In this document: one piece after another, positions 30,672-37,123 of the stretch | How the letters are laid out: every line of letters starts with the position of its first letter | Position numbering within the stretch: the stretch's first letter is position 1 | Source of the DNA: Bacillus sp. ISL-37 | GTDB lineage: Bacteria > Bacillota > Bacilli > Bacillales > Cytobacillaceae | Assembly: GCF_018613315.1 (NCBI RefSeq) | Contig: NZ_JAGGQL010000003.1 | Span: 186,001 to 250,000 of the forward strand | DNA length: 64,000 nucleotides | Reading direction: 5' to 3' | Notes under the pieces: generated by a model | What the model saw: the letters and a program-made list of their open reading frames with translations, nothing else | The model's database searches: none | Told to the model about the DNA's origin: nothing | Translations under genes and position numbers: made by a program

Positions 30672-31469
30672 ATGACGATTATGAAGGGTGTCGACCTCGA
30701 AATCGTGGAATACTTATATTCTGCTGAAAAAGAACGTCGCGAAGTCGTGAAGGTGACCGACCGTTATCCAGAGCTTAGCTTTTCCGATGCGTATTCGATT
30801 CAGGAAAAATTGATTCAGAGACGCGAGCAGGACGGGTCTCGTAAAATTGGCCTGAAGCTTGGCTTAACGAGCAAAGCGAAGCAGCAAATGATGGGAGTCC
30901 ATGAAGCGATTTATGGGTACCTGACTGATGATATGCTGGCACTGGAGTGGGAACACCTTGATTTTACAGAGTTCATCCATCCAAAAGCAGAGCCGGAAAT
31001 TGCGTTTTTCATCGACGAGGATTTGGAAGGAACCAACGTAACCGCGGAAGATGTATTAAAAGTGACGAAATTCGTGGCACCGGCAATCGAGATTATCGAC
31101 AGCCGCTATTTGAATTTCAAGTTCACCCTGGCTGATGTGATTGCGGATAACTGTTCTTCATCAAAATTTTTGATCGGAAGCAAGTGGATGTCACCGCGGG
31201 ATCTGGACTTAGGACAGCTGGGCATGGTGATGTCGAAAAACGGACAGATTGCCCAAACCGGATCGAGTGCAGCAGTCCTGGGTCATCCGGCAACATCGGT
31301 CGCATGGGCAGTCAACAAGCTTGGTGAGGTTGGGAAAGGGATTAAAAAGGGAGACGTCATCCTGAGCGGAGCGGTATCAGAGGCGATTGCCTTTGAACCA
31401 AATGATAACGTTCTAGTGCAATTCGCCGAATTGGGCAGTGTTTCTTTTACATGCAAATCAAGCACTTAG
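30672..31469 (+). CDS. 4-oxalocrotonate decarboxylase
   Basis: 265 residues, paralogue of the hydratase at 27948 but closer to DmpH: VTDRYPELSFSDAYSIQ, IGLKLGLTSKAKQQMMGV and IDSRYLNFKF match the decarboxylase pattern. Metal ligands are in PKAEPEIAFFI. It decarboxylates 2-oxohex-3-enedioate (ketonised 4-oxalocrotonate) to 2-oxopent-4-enoate, feeding the hydratase, with which it normally forms a complex. The last codons overlap the operon terminator. Confidence 0.88.
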   Translation: MTIMKGVDLEIVEYLYSAEKERREVVKVTDRYPELSFSDAYSIQEKLIQRREQDGSRKIGLKLGLTSKAKQQMMGVHEAIYGYLTDDMLALEWEHLDFTEFIHPKAEPEIAFFIDEDLEGTNVTAEDVLKVTKFVAPAIEIIDSRYLNFKFTLADVIADNCSSSKFLIGSKWMSPRDLDLGQLGMVMSKNGQIAQTGSSAAVLGHPATSVAWAVNKLGEVGKGIKKGDVILSGAVSEAIAFEPNDNVLVQFAELGSVSFTCKSST

Positions 31470-31497
31470 TTTCTATGACTAAGTGCCTTCTTTTTTA
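31462..31497 (+). terminator. intrinsic terminator after the catabolic genes
   Basis: GCACTTAGT/ACTAAGTGC perfect 9-bp stem, 7-base loop, T-rich tail; the left arm includes the last codons of the decarboxylase gene. Confidence 0.9.
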
Positions 31498-31570
31498 GTT
31501 TTGAATATTCGAAATATAAAGTTAAAATATACATTCTATGTTAAGCACTTTACACTTTTGCTAGTAAAAA

Positions 31571-31625
31571 GTGATTATAATCACAGTTAGAGACAGCTTG
31601 GGAAAATATTTTGGTAGCGTTTACA
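31571..31625 (+). promoter_or_regulatory. Crp/Fnr-type palindrome over -10, and cre-like site, before TRAP operon
   Basis: GTGATTATAATCAC at 31571-31584 is a perfect palindrome with GTGA-N6-TCAC half sites (Crp/Fnr geometry) and contains TATAAT. Just upstream CACTTTT-GCTAGTA-AAAAGTG forms another inverted repeat. At 31612-31625, TGGTAGCGTTTACA matches the CcpA cre consensus except at two positions. Transcription of the TRAP genes is thus probably under a Crp/Fnr protein and carbon catabolite control. Confidence 0.55.
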
Positions 31626-31648
31626 AAAAGAAAAAAGGGGTGCGAGAA

Positions 31649-32662
31649 ATGATTGGTTTAAGAAAATTTAGTCTGACACTATTAATTTTTATGCTCGTGT
31701 TGACGGCTGCTGCATGTGGCAATGACACTGATGCAAAGCCTGCGGCAGGATCTGGTGAGAAATACTCATTCAAGCTTGCGCACATAACCCCAACGGACCA
31801 TATGTGGCATAAAGCCGCGGAAAAATTTAAGGAAGAGCTGGAAAAGAACTCGGATGGCCGAATGACAGTGGAAATCTACCCTGCAAGCCAGCTTGGAAGT
31901 GAAGCTGATATGGTTCAGCAAATCTCTTCTGGTTCAGTAGATTTCGGATTGATTACTGCTGCCTACATGAGTTCACGCGCTCCAGCGTTCACTGCCTGGT
32001 TTGCACCATATGCTTTTGAAGATTTAAAAGAGACGAATGCAGCACGCGATACTGAAATTGCGAAGAAGATATTGGCTACCCTTGACGACCAGGGACTTAA
32101 AGGACTTGATTATCTATTCGCTGGGAACCGGGTCATGCTGTTCAAGGATAAGGAAGTAAAGAAGCCTGAAGATATGAAAGGATTAGCATTCCGTGTGACG
32201 CCAAGCCCGCCGCTTCAAGACTTTTATAAATCACTGGGAGCTTCTCCTGAGTCATTGCCATTGCCGGAAGTATACGCCGCGGTTCAAACTGGGGTAATCG
32301 ATGGAATGGATATGGACCTTGACGCCACGATTACGAACAAGTATCACGAAGTTGCCAAGTATGGTGCGGTAACGAATCACATGGTATGGCCTTCAGTTGC
32401 GATCATGAACAAAGATAAGTACGAAAAGCTGTCTGATGGAGATAAGAAGATCATTGACGACGCCATCAAGACTGCAGCTGATTATTCAGCTAACACACGC
32501 GCATCCCAGGAAGAAGAATTCAAAAAGACGCTAAGCGATACTGGGATGAAGATCTATGAAATCGACCAGAAGTTATTTGAACCATATATTAAGCAATTCG
32601 ATGAAAAATATGGACCAACAGATCCGCTGATCCAGGAATTCATCGACACATTCCGCAAATAA
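31649..32662 (+). CDS. TRAP transporter substrate-binding lipoprotein, DctP family
   Basis: 337 residues from ATG 31649 behind AAAAAGGGGTG; the ORF extension to 31571 covers the promoter. A signal peptide with lipobox LTAAAC (Cys near residue 23) anchors it outside. The DctP fold is clear: KLAHITPTDHMWHKAAEKFKEELEKNSDGRM, EVYAAVQTGVIDGMD and the ligand carboxylate Arg in LAFRVTPS. Its position after the anthranilate pathway genes suggests capture of an aromatic or other carboxylate related to that pathway. Confidence 0.94.
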   Translation: MIGLRKFSLTLLIFMLVLTAAACGNDTDAKPAAGSGEKYSFKLAHITPTDHMWHKAAEKFKEELEKNSDGRMTVEIYPASQLGSEADMVQQISSGSVDFGLITAAYMSSRAPAFTAWFAPYAFEDLKETNAARDTEIAKKILATLDDQGLKGLDYLFAGNRVMLFKDKEVKKPEDMKGLAFRVTPSPPLQDFYKSLGASPESLPLPEVYAAVQTGVIDGMDMDLDATITNKYHEVAKYGAVTNHMVWPSVAIMNKDKYEKLSDGDKKIIDDAIKTAADYSANTRASQEEEFKKTLSDTGMKIYEIDQKLFEPYIKQFDEKYGPTDPLIQEFIDTFRK

Positions 32663-32680
32663 CCTATTGGAGGGAAATGC

Positions 32681-33211
32681 GTGAAATACGTCAGCAATAT
32701 GGTAGCCAGTTTCGAAAAGAAACTGGCTATTATCCTAATGTTTGCAATGGCTGTGATTGTCGCGGCTGCCGTTGTTTTTCGATATGTATTCAATAACCCA
32801 TTATTCTGGGCGGGAGAGGTATCGATTTTCTTGTTGATTTACATAACGTTCATCGGCGGCAGCCTAGGCTTGAAGTATAAGACACAGGCGTCTGTAACGC
32901 TGATTACAGATTATCTGCCTGAAAAGATTAATAAATGGGTGGCAGTACTTGCTCATATCTTTATGCTATTATTCATGGCGATTCTATTATTCTATTGTTT
33001 TACCTGGATTACTTCATCATCTGTAGCAATCCAAAGATCGAGTGCGATTTTGCTTCCAATGTGGATTCCTTATGCGATTCTGCCTTTTGGATTGCTGTTC
33101 GCGACGATTCATTTAATTAGTAATATGTTTGATATTATGCAAAATCAGCATATTGATAGTGAAATGGTTACGAATCTCCATGCTGCTGCAAAGGAGAGTG
33201 AAGAAGAATGA
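32681..33211 (+). CDS. TRAP transporter small permease, DctQ family
   Basis: 176 residues with four membrane helices: IILMFAMAVIVAAAVVFRYVF, WAGEVSIFLLIYITFIGGSLG, VLAHIFMLLFMAILLFYCF and the last near 125-148. FRYVFNNPLFWAGEVS is the DctQ signature. It pairs with the large permease encoded 4 bases overlapping downstream. GGAGGGAAATGC precedes GTG 32681. Confidence 0.93.
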   Translation: MKYVSNMVASFEKKLAIILMFAMAVIVAAAVVFRYVFNNPLFWAGEVSIFLLIYITFIGGSLGLKYKTQASVTLITDYLPEKINKWVAVLAHIFMLLFMAILLFYCFTWITSSSVAIQRSSAILLPMWIPYAILPFGLLFATIHLISNMFDIMQNQHIDSEMVTNLHAAAKESEEE

Positions 33212-34488
33212 TGGCACTGGTTATTTTAGCATTCGTTGTATTTCTGTTCATGGGAATTCCCATCTCGCTTGTGCTTGGAATGACAACGATCGTTTACTTC
33301 TTGGTGACTGGCAATACAATGCTGCTCGAATCGACTCCACAGCGGCTGTATTCGGGGATGGAGAATTTCGGGTTATTAGCGATTCCGTTGTTCATGCTGA
33401 CAGGTGAGTTGATGAATAGCGGCGGTATCACCAACAGGCTTGTGGTATTTGCAAGAATGCTCGTCGGTCATGTACGTGGGGGTCTCGCTTACGTCACGGT
33501 TATCGCTAATATGTTCCTAGCTTCTATATTGGGTTCGGCGAACGCGCAAGCCGCCATGATGAGCAAGGTGATGGTACCTGAGATGGAAAAAGAGGGTTAT
33601 AGCCGGGAATTTTCGTCGGCTTTGACACTCGCAAGCTCTATCGTGGCGCCAATCATTCCGCCGAGCATGATTTTCATCATTTATGGAACCTTGTCTGGAA
33701 CTTCGATTGGCGGTTTGTTCATGGCCGGGATTATTCCGGGAACGATTTTTGGTATCGGTTTTGTCTCTTTAATCGCCTATTTAGGATATAAGCATAATTT
33801 CCCGCGCAGTGAAAGAGCCAGCTTAAGCGCTATCTTCGACTCTTTCCTTAAGGTATTACCAGCTATTTTGGTCCCATTTGTCATTACTGTCGGGATTTTA
33901 AGCGGGGCTTTCACAGCAACAGAATCTGCCGCAGTTGCCAGTGTGATTGCATTCATTGTTGGGATGTTTTTTTACAAAGAATTGAAGTGGAAAAGCTTGT
34001 CGAAGATCTTGGTGAACACCGTTATTGGTACAGCCACAGTTACCTTCTTGATTGCGATGGCCAATTTATTCGGCTGGCTGATTGCCTTTGAGCAAATCCC
34101 GCAATTGATTGCGAACTCGATGTTGTCCATTTCGGATAACCCGTTTGTTTTCCTGTTGCTGGTTAACATCTTCTTGTTACTAATAGGGACATTGCTAGAT
34201 GGAATCGCAGCTCTGATTATCCTTGTTCCAGTGTTGATGCCTTTGGTTACAGGGTTCAATATCGATCCAATCCATTTCGGTGTGATTATCTGTATCAACC
34301 TGACAATCGGACTGTTGACACCGCCAGTCGGAACAGGACTGTTCATCGTGTCCTCCATCGCCGAAGTAAAATTCGAACGCTTGATTAAAGCCGTTACACC
34401 AATGCTTCTAATCGGAATCGCCATGCTCTTCATCGTCACCTACTGGGAACAAACAACTTTGTTTATACCACGATTGCTAGGATTCTAA
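33208..34488 (+). CDS. TRAP transporter large permease, DctM family
   Basis: 426 residues, about twelve membrane helices, with DctM hallmarks: FLFMGIPISLVLG, PLFMLTGELMNSGGIT, GSANAQAAMMSKVMVPEM and IIPPSMIFIIYG; the second half has LLTPPVGTGLF. It carries out sodium-driven uptake of the solute delivered by the DctP protein. AAGGAGAGTG precedes the start, overlapping the small permease by 4 bases. A hairpin follows at 34487. Confidence 0.95.
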   Translation: MMALVILAFVVFLFMGIPISLVLGMTTIVYFLVTGNTMLLESTPQRLYSGMENFGLLAIPLFMLTGELMNSGGITNRLVVFARMLVGHVRGGLAYVTVIANMFLASILGSANAQAAMMSKVMVPEMEKEGYSREFSSALTLASSIVAPIIPPSMIFIIYGTLSGTSIGGLFMAGIIPGTIFGIGFVSLIAYLGYKHNFPRSERASLSAIFDSFLKVLPAILVPFVITVGILSGAFTATESAAVASVIAFIVGMFFYKELKWKSLSKILVNTVIGTATVTFLIAMANLFGWLIAFEQIPQLIANSMLSISDNPFVFLLLVNIFLLLIGTLLDGIAALIILVPVLMPLVTGFNIDPIHFGVIICINLTIGLLTPPVGTGLFIVSSIAEVKFERLIKAVTPMLLIGIAMLFIVTYWEQTTLFIPRLLGF

Positions 34489-34715
34489 TTCGGGCGGTGT
34501 CTGTCACCACCCGGAATTTGTCCTTGTTAAGGAAATTATAAAATTATTTAGGTGAGGATAACTGCATGTGGTTTTCTTAATCCAGCTCCAGCGCCTAGCC
34601 CCTCGGGTCGCTTCGAGCCGCTCATTGAAGTCAAAGAACGACTTCATTGGGCGTCCCTCCAGCGCTTGTCGGGGCTGAACAATGCGCTTGTGCTTATTGA
34701 TCATAAGGGAGTTGT
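34487..34715. repeat. structured intergenic element (possible dispersed repeat)
   Basis: The gap between the TRAP and tautomerase genes holds three potential hairpins: TTCGGGCGGTG with CACCACCCGGAA (34487-34517), TGAAGTC/GACTTCA near 34627-34650, and a GC-rich block CCAGCGCCTAGCCCC ... GGGGCTGAACAATGCGCTT. Its GC-rich composition differs from the neighbouring AT-rich gaps. I recall very similar blocks as dispersed intergenic repeats in several Bacillaceae genomes, but cannot confirm it here. An ORF reading through (from 34552) is not taken as coding. Confidence 0.55.
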
Positions 34716-34719
34716 TGCT

Positions 34720-34917
34720 ATGCCGATTATTCAGGTACAAGTTCTTGAAGGTCGAAGTGATGAGAAAATAAAGGAATTGATTGCTGGAATTACTGAAACT
34801 GCAGTTCGAACGCTAGAGGTAAAGCCAGAGCAGGTGCGAGTGATCGTCCAGACGGTGCCTGATAAGTACTGGGGCGTTGGCGGAGTTACGAAGGACGAGA
34901 AAAAATCCCAACTCTGA
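34720..34917 (+). CDS. 4-oxalocrotonate tautomerase
   Basis: 65 residues starting MPIIQVQVLEGR; AAGGGAG lies 8 bases before ATG 34720. After Met removal, Pro1 is the catalytic base, and Arg11, Arg39 and an aromatic residue at 50 (Trp instead of the usual Phe) match the tautomerase active site. It interconverts enol and keto forms of 4-oxalocrotonate, upstream of the decarboxylase. It is separated from the pathway operon by the TRAP genes but completes the route. Confidence 0.93.
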   Translation: MPIIQVQVLEGRSDEKIKELIAGITETAVRTLEVKPEQVRVIVQTVPDKYWGVGGVTKDEKKSQL

Positions 34918-35458: not shown

Positions 35459-35490
35459 AAGAACCACCTTCACAGAAGGTGGTTCTTTCG
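35459..35490. terminator. bidirectional terminator between VOC and redoxin genes
   Basis: AAGAACCACCTTC/GAAGGTGGTTCTT perfect 13-bp stem with a 3-base loop; T-rich tails on both strands. Confidence 0.88.
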
Positions 35491-35493
35491 CTT

Positions 35494-36015
35494 TTATTCA
35501 GTTGGTTTCTCACCGTTCGCGATATCCGCTGCGTAGGGAAGGATTCCTTCTGCTTCGATGCCGAATGTATCGATTTCCTGCGAATGAAGAACTGTGCCGT
35601 CTTTATCAAGAACAGCGAAGCCTCGTACTGCGATTGGAGACTCCGGGTCCAACATGTTTGTTTTCTTGATCAATTTCAGTTTCTCATCAGAGATAACTGG
35701 ATAATCAAGTCCCAACTCTTCTTTCATCGCTTTATGTTCCTTTACAGACGATGCGCTTACGGCGTAAATGTTCCCAGGAAACTGGCTGAATGATTCTTTC
35801 CGGTTCTGCAGCTCGACCAGCTGCGATTTACAGAAGTCTCAACCAACTCCCGTAAAAAAGAAAACCAGCGCAGGCTCTTCCATATTTTCGAAGGATACTT
35901 CCTCACCGTTTTCATCAGGCAGGGAAAGGCCTTTTGATTCAGATTTATCTTCAGAACAGCCGCTTAGGAAAGCTCCTATCATTAATAACATCATTAAAAA
36001 AGCTAATTTCTTCAA
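35494..36015 (-). CDS. redoxin-domain lipoprotein with in-frame UGA at CxxC; probable selenoprotein
   Basis: Standard translation yields only a 77-residue C-terminal frame from 35727. If the TGA at 35841-35839 is read as selenocysteine, one frame runs from TTG 36015 (AAGGAGGTG upstream) to 35494: 173 residues. It begins with a lipoprotein signal (lipobox LSGC), then a thioredoxin/AhpC-TSA fold: GLSLPDENGEEV, ALVFFFTGVG-U-DFC with U at residue 59, and later GFAVLDKDGTVL. UGA stands precisely where the first Cys of a CxxC redox motif is expected. A SECIS-like stem-loop follows 20 bases after it. It would act as an extracellular, membrane-anchored thiol/selenol oxidoreductase. Alternative: a Cys codon mutated to a stop. 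Confidence 0.75.
35804..35835 (-). promoter_or_regulatory. putative bacterial SECIS element
   Basis: Downstream of the UGA on the minus strand, GCAGCT (35824-35819) and AGCTGC (35813-35808) form a perfect 6-bp stem with apical loop GGTCG; TTCT/AGAA extends it past a bulge. The loop starts 20 bases after UGA and begins with GGU, as in the E. coli fdhF SECIS recognised by SelB. Confidence 0.6.
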
Positions 36016-36232
36016 GGTGCACCTCCTTATGTATTTTCTTCAGTATATATTGTTTTGCTGAAAACTCATTATACCATTTATGAAGAATTTGTATCGAATC
36101 GCCAACTCCTTCCTCCTAAATTCCTATTTTTTATAAAAAAGAGCCTTCCATTTAGTTAAAATTCAGAAAATATGTTAATGTTATAATTAGTAACAGGTCA
36201 TAATATCTAGTATTTAATTTGGAGGGACTGCT

Positions 36233-37123
36233 TTGCTGACGAACCACCTGGATTTCCGACTCGAGCCAAGGATTAGAGAACTTTATGAGGAGCATAAGAA
36301 TCGTGCTGAAAAAATCGACTGGGGCTACCATGAATTTTTGCCGTGGGATAAGGCAATGGATTTTAAACGCGTTCCCTGGGATGAAAGCCAGGTCACGTTG
36401 CCGACACCGGTTATTACTGCCATTGAAACAGCGCTGCTAACCGAGGTGAACCTTCCATGGTTTACTTCTTATCTGGATCAGACATTTAAGGGGTCTTTAT
36501 CGGTCATCAAAGATTTTGTCCATACATGGACGGCAGAAGAGGACCAGCACTCAAATTTGCTTGAAACGTATCTGTTAATAACCAGAAATGTTGAACCAAT
36601 GCGACTGCATCAATTACATAAAATGACATTGGAGAATGGCTGGGATCCGGATTTTCATACGCCATTTGAGACGATGGTCTACACCTCAATGCAAGAGCTC
36701 GCGACGATGGTGTTTTACAATAATGTCGCGAAGGTAGCAGGTCATCATGATCGGGAATTGGCCACGCTTCTTCGCCGTCTTGCAAAGGATGAGACGCTTC
36801 ACTACGCATTTTATCGAGATGTAATCAAATACCACCTAGAATTAGAGCCTAATTATTGCTACTACCTGGGCAATGTCATCATGAACTTTAAAATGCCAGG
36901 TGCCGTCATGCCAGACTTTGAAGACCGGATGGCCATCATCGCTAAAGAGGCGAATTATGGCCCACTGGAGTATTTCGATCAGGTGCTTGATGTGATTGTC
37001 GATTACTGGGATATCGAAAACCTGCGGCCAATTGCGCCTGAAGCGGAAAAAGCACGACTAGACATTCTTAATTACCATGCGCGTTTGAAAAGGGTCAGGG
37101 AGAGGTTTTATAAAAATAAATAG
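36233..37123 (+). CDS. ferritin-like acyl-ACP desaturase
   Basis: 296 residues of the fatty acid desaturase type 2 (acyl-[acyl-carrier-protein] desaturase) family. Di-iron ligands are visible as TAEEDQHSNLL (E-E-x-x-H) at about residues 101-111 and LAKDETLHYAFYRD (E-x-x-H) at about 187-200. The N-terminal RIRELYEEHKNRAEKIDW and FLPWDKAMDF are typical. It inserts a double bond in acyl chains, for membrane fluidity. The TTG start has GGAGG 7 bases upstream. It runs divergently from the selenoprotein gene; the 217-base gap between them holds an AT-rich promoter region with TATAAT at about 36180. Confidence 0.9.
   Translation: MLTNHLDFRLEPRIRELYEEHKNRAEKIDWGYHEFLPWDKAMDFKRVPWDESQVTLPTPVITAIETALLTEVNLPWFTSYLDQTFKGSLSVIKDFVHTWTAEEDQHSNLLETYLLITRNVEPMRLHQLHKMTLENGWDPDFHTPFETMVYTSMQELATMVFYNNVAKVAGHHDRELATLLRRLAKDETLHYAFYRDVIKYHLELEPNYCYYLGNVIMNFKMPGAVMPDFEDRMAIIAKEANYGPLEYFDQVLDVIVDYWDIENLRPIAPEAEKARLDILNYHARLKRVRERFYKNK

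Follow-up and report, generated by a model that had tools for sequence, protein, structure and literature searches.

Does the interrupted reading frame on the minus strand at positions 35494..36015 of the window (the 64,000-nucleotide stretch of Bacillus sp. ISL-37 DNA analysed here) encode a selenoprotein or is it the remnant of a broken gene, and, if it is functional, what does its product do? Read from 36015 to 35494, the frame consists of 173 codons followed by a TAA stop (included in the coordinates), and its sole interruption is a TGA at 35841-35839, which corresponds to residue 59. The preliminary description held that reading through this one TGA joins a lipoprotein signal peptide with a TTG start to a redoxin domain, and all these elements are indeed found in an otherwise open frame. 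The TTG codon (36013..36015, minus strand as for all features of this gene; the corresponding codon in relatives is TTG, GTG or ATG) is preceded, at a distance of 6 nt, by the Shine-Dalgarno sequence AAGGAGG (36022..36028), and all 8 named relatives have AGGAG at the corresponding site. The signal peptide (35956..36015) contains the lipobox LSGC at residues 17-20, with Cys20 invariant in all 8 aligned sequences, so that the product is predicted to be lipidated at this residue. The lipobox pattern fits 118 of 125 distinct relatives, and 5 more have Cys in a near-lipobox; the two group B sequences with Phe in place of this Cys (L074 and L094) are perhaps secreted or membrane-anchored forms. The UGA lies, as had been described, within the motif TGVG-U-DFC, i.e., U59-D-F-C62, a UxxC motif. 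The whole frame can be aligned to 7 relatives (79-98% identity), and a search started with the read-through protein identifies PF00578 (AhpC-TSA) with 74.4 bits over residues 30-144 (gathering cut-off 26). Given that this match runs across the UGA and that the UGA, the frame and a hairpin downstream of it are retained in relatives, the read-through frame is more than a chance arrangement.

An ORF listing yields, as anticipated, only a 77-aa fragment (35494-35727), and a single substitution converts a Cys codon into TGA; both facts are compatible with a nonsense mutation, whereby a Cys redoxin gene was broken by a TGT or TGC to TGA change and is now a pseudogene. The distribution of the UGA among relatives argues against such a mutation. 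One scan of genome contigs finds UGA at the site in 8 of 8 relatives (Mesobacillus, Cytobacillus and Bacillus sp., and one titled Chryseobacterium); the protein of Mesobacillus selenatarsenatis is 95% identical. A scan of 193 genomes from the host's taxonomic family gives matches in 86 (E<=1e-10). It yields 99 match rows, 97 of which contain the TGA; the other two are gene fragments. In G070 the row is the latter part of a gene split by a frameshift, and in G063 the match covers only the region downstream of the UGA, the UGA of that gene itself being seen in further searches, so that UGA is present in 98 of 98 loci and not TGT or TGC. Three family rows also contain TAA or TAG, and the two of these that were parsed (L057 and L058) have an open frame around the UGA that already begins before the start codon and continues to the end of the gene. 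Across 397 genomes of the order, all 64 rows at E<=1e-38 carry TGA among the matches listed, and rows with and without stops are mixed at weaker scores, again among the matches listed; one stop-free row (G331) covers only model positions 79-144, i.e., the part after the UGA. A row with one TGA from G330 was left out of the order count because the stretch fetched (L145) lacks a Sec-type site and this genome lacks SelA. A phylum-wide draw of 398 genomes gives 26 matches at E<=1e-12, with a TGA row only in the host's own genome. No close Cys form of the gene was found in the family, in the order among the matches listed, or in the 398 phylum genomes. A match on a Niallia taxi plasmid (H1) proved to be a plain AhpC.

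The part of the gene that follows the UGA also appears to be translated and under selection, to judge from dN/dS values of 0.02-0.08 downstream of the hairpin in 11 comparisons with close-group relatives, the ratios being rough in 6 of the 11, where dS exceeds 1. The pseudogene reading is rejected on the strength of the conserved UGA and these ratios; the covarying hairpin described below and the lack of a close Cys form among the matches listed point in the same direction, and its probability is negligible. Two loci call for separate comment. In Mesobacillus boroniphilus JCM 21738 (L028), which is among the 8 relatives with UGA at the site, a gene that is otherwise similar has a frameshift downstream of the UGA, which is either a draft error or a real loss. 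The sequence titled Chryseobacterium sp. ISL-80 (L026, JAGGQZ010000009.1) has a gene that is 83% identical, with neighbors as in the Mesobacillus and Bacillus loci, and the Chryseobacterium title looks mistaken.

The gene is apparently one member of a large, widespread and unnamed family with at least four groups, an aspect that was absent from the preliminary description. Group A, with the motif TGxx-U-D[FY]C-KSQLVELQ, holds the gene of the window; group B has TTYT-U-xxC-QQQLVQLH, and a few further sequences are near it; group C has YFTGxx-U-xxC-xSQLVEL, and group D has FHFT..-U-xxC-xxQLVxLQ. More distant homologs, taken from the listed stop-free rows of the order, have Cys: in 20 of 20 that were fetched, CxxC stands where the Sec family has UxxC, in the context FFRGxWCPVC in 19 and FFRGSWCPAC in one. 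These were considered as possible ResA-like proteins and are instead AhpC/TSA proteins of the FFRGxWCPVC type. The suggestion that the UGA occupies the position of a redox-active Cys is borne out by this alignment. In a tree of 64 rows, groups A, B and C and the Cys rows each fall on one side of a branch, with group D placed so that it surrounds A and B; group D may nevertheless have a single origin. The place of the Cys branch in the tree is unsafe because this branch is long (1.9).

The hairpin (35808..35824) has a 6-bp stem, GCAGCU/AGCUGC, and a 5-nt loop, GGUCG (35814-35818). Counted from the UGA, the stem begins at 14 nt and the loop at 20 nt, exactly as initially reported. In 108 distinct sequences from all groups, 98.9% of the stem cells are paired, and three of the six stem pairs are invariant. 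The outer pair is GC in 86 sequences, UA in 11, CG in 3, AU in 1 and unpaired in 7, and the fourth pair is GC in 67, AU in 35 and GU in 6. Cells with double changes number 50, compared to 15.2 in shuffles, and the covariation score is 0.236, compared to 0.098, with none of 500 shuffles as high on either measure; two of the five covariation measures are not above shuffles (pairs with double changes, 2 vs 1.9; pair types, 6 vs 5.1). Controls slid along the alignment pair in 6.6-35.8% of cells, and the +3 slide also shows 13 double-change cells. At codons +4..+11 of group A, 0.906 of codons are identical given the same residue, compared to 0.442 at other codons; no clear increase at the hairpin is seen in group B (0.62 vs 0.57 elsewhere). 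The folding energy does not stand out (z -1.32) and is matched by 16 of 200 shuffles. Moreover, the window has GGT-loop hairpins (stem length at least 5) after 43 of its 2768 TGA triplets and after 4 of its 104 long-frame stops (0 of 31 TGA, 4 of 53 TAA and 0 of 20 TAG). Given the ordinary energy and the fact that such hairpins are not rare in the window, the hairpin alone is not decisive. The preliminary description regarded close relatives with TGT or TGC and no conserved hairpin as the mark of a nonsense mutation; the relatives have UGA instead, and the retention of the hairpin with compensatory changes identifies it as a predicted SECIS just downstream of the UGA and a putative target of SelB.

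The genome of the host (4.74 Mb, 62 contigs) encodes the complete set of Sec decoding components that the preliminary description proposed to look for, all above curated cut-offs: tRNA-Sec (67.1 bits; ARAGORN gives the anticodon tca), SelB (357.7 bits), SelA (563.1 bits) and SelD (395.4 bits). The numbers of genomes that pass these cut-offs among 14 controls are 5, 2, 1 and 2 for tRNA-Sec, SelB, SelA and SelD, respectively. Three other genes of known selenoprotein types in this genome contain an in-frame UGA, namely SelD (U-GCK), FdhA (U-HAPSVAGL) and a second FdhA-type gene (U-HSSTVAGL) that scores below the TIGR01591 cut-off; Sec motifs given in the published literature include UxxK for SelD and UHxP for FdhA. 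The two formate dehydrogenase-type genes (host genome G000, C5:15400-17421 and C60:140735-141487; loci L150 and L154) both have a hairpin at a similar distance from the UGA with the loop GGUCU, which is close to the GGUCG of the gene analysed here. SelA is encoded in 172 of the 193 family genomes (of the 21 without it, 20 are named and G192 follows by elimination), so that Sec decoding looks common here, contrary to the earlier remark that selenoproteins are rare in aerobic Bacillaceae. All 86 carriers of the gene in the family have SelA (overlap compared by eye; Fisher 1.9e-6). In the order, SelA is present in 181 of 397 genomes, and it is missing from none of the 76 for which a TGA row is listed (Fisher 2.3e-31). 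The carriers are phylogenetically non-independent, and both p-values ignore shared ancestry.

These data also bear on a reading of the UGA that involves no selenium, either near-cognate read-through or a regulated stop, in which case the hairpin would be a read-through signal rather than a SECIS. The evidence for Sec in this protein is sequence-based, which leaves some room for this explanation, but the UGA occupies the position of the redox Cys of the 20 fetched Cys homologs, the listed carriers in the order invariably have SelA even though 216 of the 397 genomes lack it, and the distance and loop of the hairpin resemble those of the host's own FdhA-type genes. A selenium-free reading is accordingly very improbable, if less so than the pseudogene. 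Taken together, the machinery genes and the retention of the UGA and of a covarying hairpin in relatives support the original reading of the locus as a probable selenoprotein gene.

The read-through protein appears to adopt a peroxiredoxin fold. The best of five AlphaFold2 models (built with 8 sequences) has a mean pLDDT of 80.5 (79.6 to 56.1 for the others), and a fold search started with the model identifies AhpE and PrxQ as the best matches, with a TM score of about 0.65. In the model, residue 59 lies just before a helix, 60-71. In the three profile alignments printed, Cys62 (codon 35830..35832) falls on the peroxidatic Cys of peroxiredoxins, Sec59 (codon 35839..35841, assigned from the frame and conservation in relatives) on the Thr or Ser of the TxxC site, and Arg131 (codon 35623..35625) on the conserved peroxiredoxin Arg, a residue with a catalytic role in these enzymes. 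Cys62 does not vary in two alignments, one with 47 and one with 55 rows, and Arg131 is likewise invariant in the alignments. Thus, the peroxidatic position is occupied by Cys, and Sec is found three residues before it where peroxiredoxins have Thr or Ser, an arrangement that the preliminary description did not mention. The active site is a predicted UxxC disulfide-exchange site within a peroxiredoxin body, and the gene very probably encodes an extracytoplasmic, lipid-anchored Sec-containing UxxC oxidoreductase with this fold, in which Sec59 and Cys62 would form the redox pair.

The direction of catalysis is a question on which genomic context provides some clues. In group D, ctaG and sco precede the Sec gene, all three on one strand, in each of the 17 loci fetched, which come from 17 genomes (7-kb contexts; L165, L166, L177, L179-L183 and L185-L193; genes named by Pfam for L165 and by similarity to L165 for the other loci). 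These are copper assembly genes of cytochrome oxidase, which places the group D selenoprotein inside an oxidase assembly cluster. The search covered 79 loci in all; the remaining 62 (from groups A, B and C and further sequences, in part overlapping, and for the most part with flanks of 1.5-4 kb) lack this linkage within the stretch, and neither ctaG nor sco is found near the Cys homologs in the 20 stretches fetched. The known precedent is TlpA, a membrane-anchored redoxin that is described as reducing ScoI and oxidase subunit II (PMC6696091), and the placement of group D suggests a thiol reductase similar to TlpA. On these grounds, thiol reduction on the outer face of the membrane is favored, and disulfide rather than peroxide reduction is the somewhat more probable activity of the protein in the window. 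The main rival is peroxide reduction as the principal function, such that Cys62 or Sec59 would reduce extracellular hydroperoxides, with the UxxC pair serving as the resolving couple. The closest solved folds and sequences are peroxiredoxins, and Arg131 and Cys62 align with conserved residues of these enzymes, in agreement with such a function; Sec in place of the Thr or Ser of TxxC would rather favor thioredoxin-like disulfide exchange, and the tie of group D to ctaG and sco, where fetched, points to thiol reduction in oxidase assembly. Peroxide reduction is therefore possible and the less likely of the two.

If disulfide exchange is indeed the activity, the ribosome would read the UGA at 35841-35839 as Sec via tRNA-Sec and SelB, the latter recognizing the hairpin that starts 14 nt downstream, with its GGUCG loop. 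At the external surface of the membrane, Sec59, positioned where a helix begins, would attack a disulfide or another oxidized sulfur of a client protein; Cys62 would resolve the mixed selenenylsulfide, and the enzyme would be reset by a putative electron donor in the membrane, which may be of the CcdA/DsbD type. We infer both Sec insertion at the UGA and the direction of catalysis from comparison of sequences. By a weaker argument that draws on the linked relatives, the protein could act, like TlpA, on Sco and cytochrome oxidase subunit II, with the cysteines of their copper sites as clients. A speculative extension is that this Bacillales family of Sec lipoproteins acts on the external side of the membrane, where it reduces the copper-site thiols of Sco and of cytochrome c oxidase subunit II, that assembly of the aerobic oxidase might thus be selenium-dependent, and that the gene in the window represents an unlinked branch. 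For this gene in particular, a copper-site role is a tentative extrapolation from the linked relatives because none of the six Sco-family matches in the host genome is on its contig; its own neighbors, a desaturase-like gene and a glyoxalase gene, show no link to copper assembly.

An intrinsic terminator-like hairpin (35459..35487) is located directly 3' of the Sec gene, one of two in the region, one per strand, where shuffles lead one to expect 1.0. The glyoxalase gene converges on this hairpin and the desaturase-like gene is divergent upstream; given this arrangement, the Sec gene appears to be monocistronic. The divergent gene (36233-37123) belongs to FA_desaturase_2 (170 bits), and a gene of this cluster occupies the same place in 6 of 29 contexts compared, all 6 in group A. 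Elsewhere in the window (30672-34917), a gene of the FAA-hydrolase type, a whole TRAP transporter (DctP, DctQ and DctM) and a tautomerase are encoded side by side and are perhaps involved in uptake and breakdown of an aromatic compound. In two group C loci, L162 and L163, the Sec redoxin gene is adjacent to genes for a UbiD-type decarboxylase, a DJ-1/PfpI protein and an FAA hydrolase (assigned by Pfam for L162 and by similarity for L163).

The family, which is found in nearly half of the genomes of one bacterial family (86/193), may easily be overlooked, or annotated as gene fragments, when UGA is treated as a stop. With it, Sec use in Bacillales extends past formate dehydrogenase and SelD. 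Its 108 distinct hairpin sequences form a natural collection of a single SECIS type, and the linkage of group D to ctaG and sco raises the question whether selenium is needed for cytochrome oxidase assembly in Gram-positive bacteria.

Several known systems can be compared with this protein. ResA and StoA of Bacillus are extracytoplasmic thioredoxin-type CxxC thiol-disulfide oxidoreductases. The Sec protein does not belong with ResA: it scores 21.1 bits with the NCBIfam model PRK03147, far under the cut-off of 170, and the first ResA structure is at rank 49 in the fold search, below the peroxiredoxins. TlpA and the Sec protein are both membrane-anchored redoxins outside the cytoplasm, and the related group D is encoded behind sco, whereas TlpA is a thioredoxin-like protein with Cys and the fold of the Sec protein is nearer to peroxiredoxins than to ResA. 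AhpE and PrxQ (PDB entries 1xxu and 5iow), among the best fold matches, share 17-18% identity with the Sec protein, which differs from them by Sec at the Thr or Ser place and by its lipid anchor. No NCBIfam model reaches its cut-off for the 17 members tested (5 from A, 2 from B, 4 from C, 4 from D and 2 others); the weak similarity (16-36 bits) to NF053656 (TUGYCR motif thioredoxin fold (seleno)protein) and NF040769 (SelL-related redox protein) is far under the cut-offs of 100 and 120 bits. For Bacillales, a census of 2006 counted 3 selenoproteins, belonging to 3 families (PMC1794560), and no report of a Bacillales redoxin selenoprotein was found in the open text of PubMed Central, to which the search was confined, subscription literature being outside its scope. 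The closest known kind is that of the peroxiredoxin-like thiol:disulfide oxidoreductase selenoproteins (PF00578, UxxC or UxxU), a family listed in PMC13188914 (Table 1) and PMC9312934, with which the Sec protein has in common the PF00578 domain and the UxxC motif. Since Sec-containing UxxC proteins of this type are already a listed family, the kind of protein is known. The protein of the window differs from this family (listed representative WP_010940744.1) in being a Bacillales lipoprotein, and, to judge from the literature covered, the Bacillales Sec-lipoprotein lineage appears to be new.
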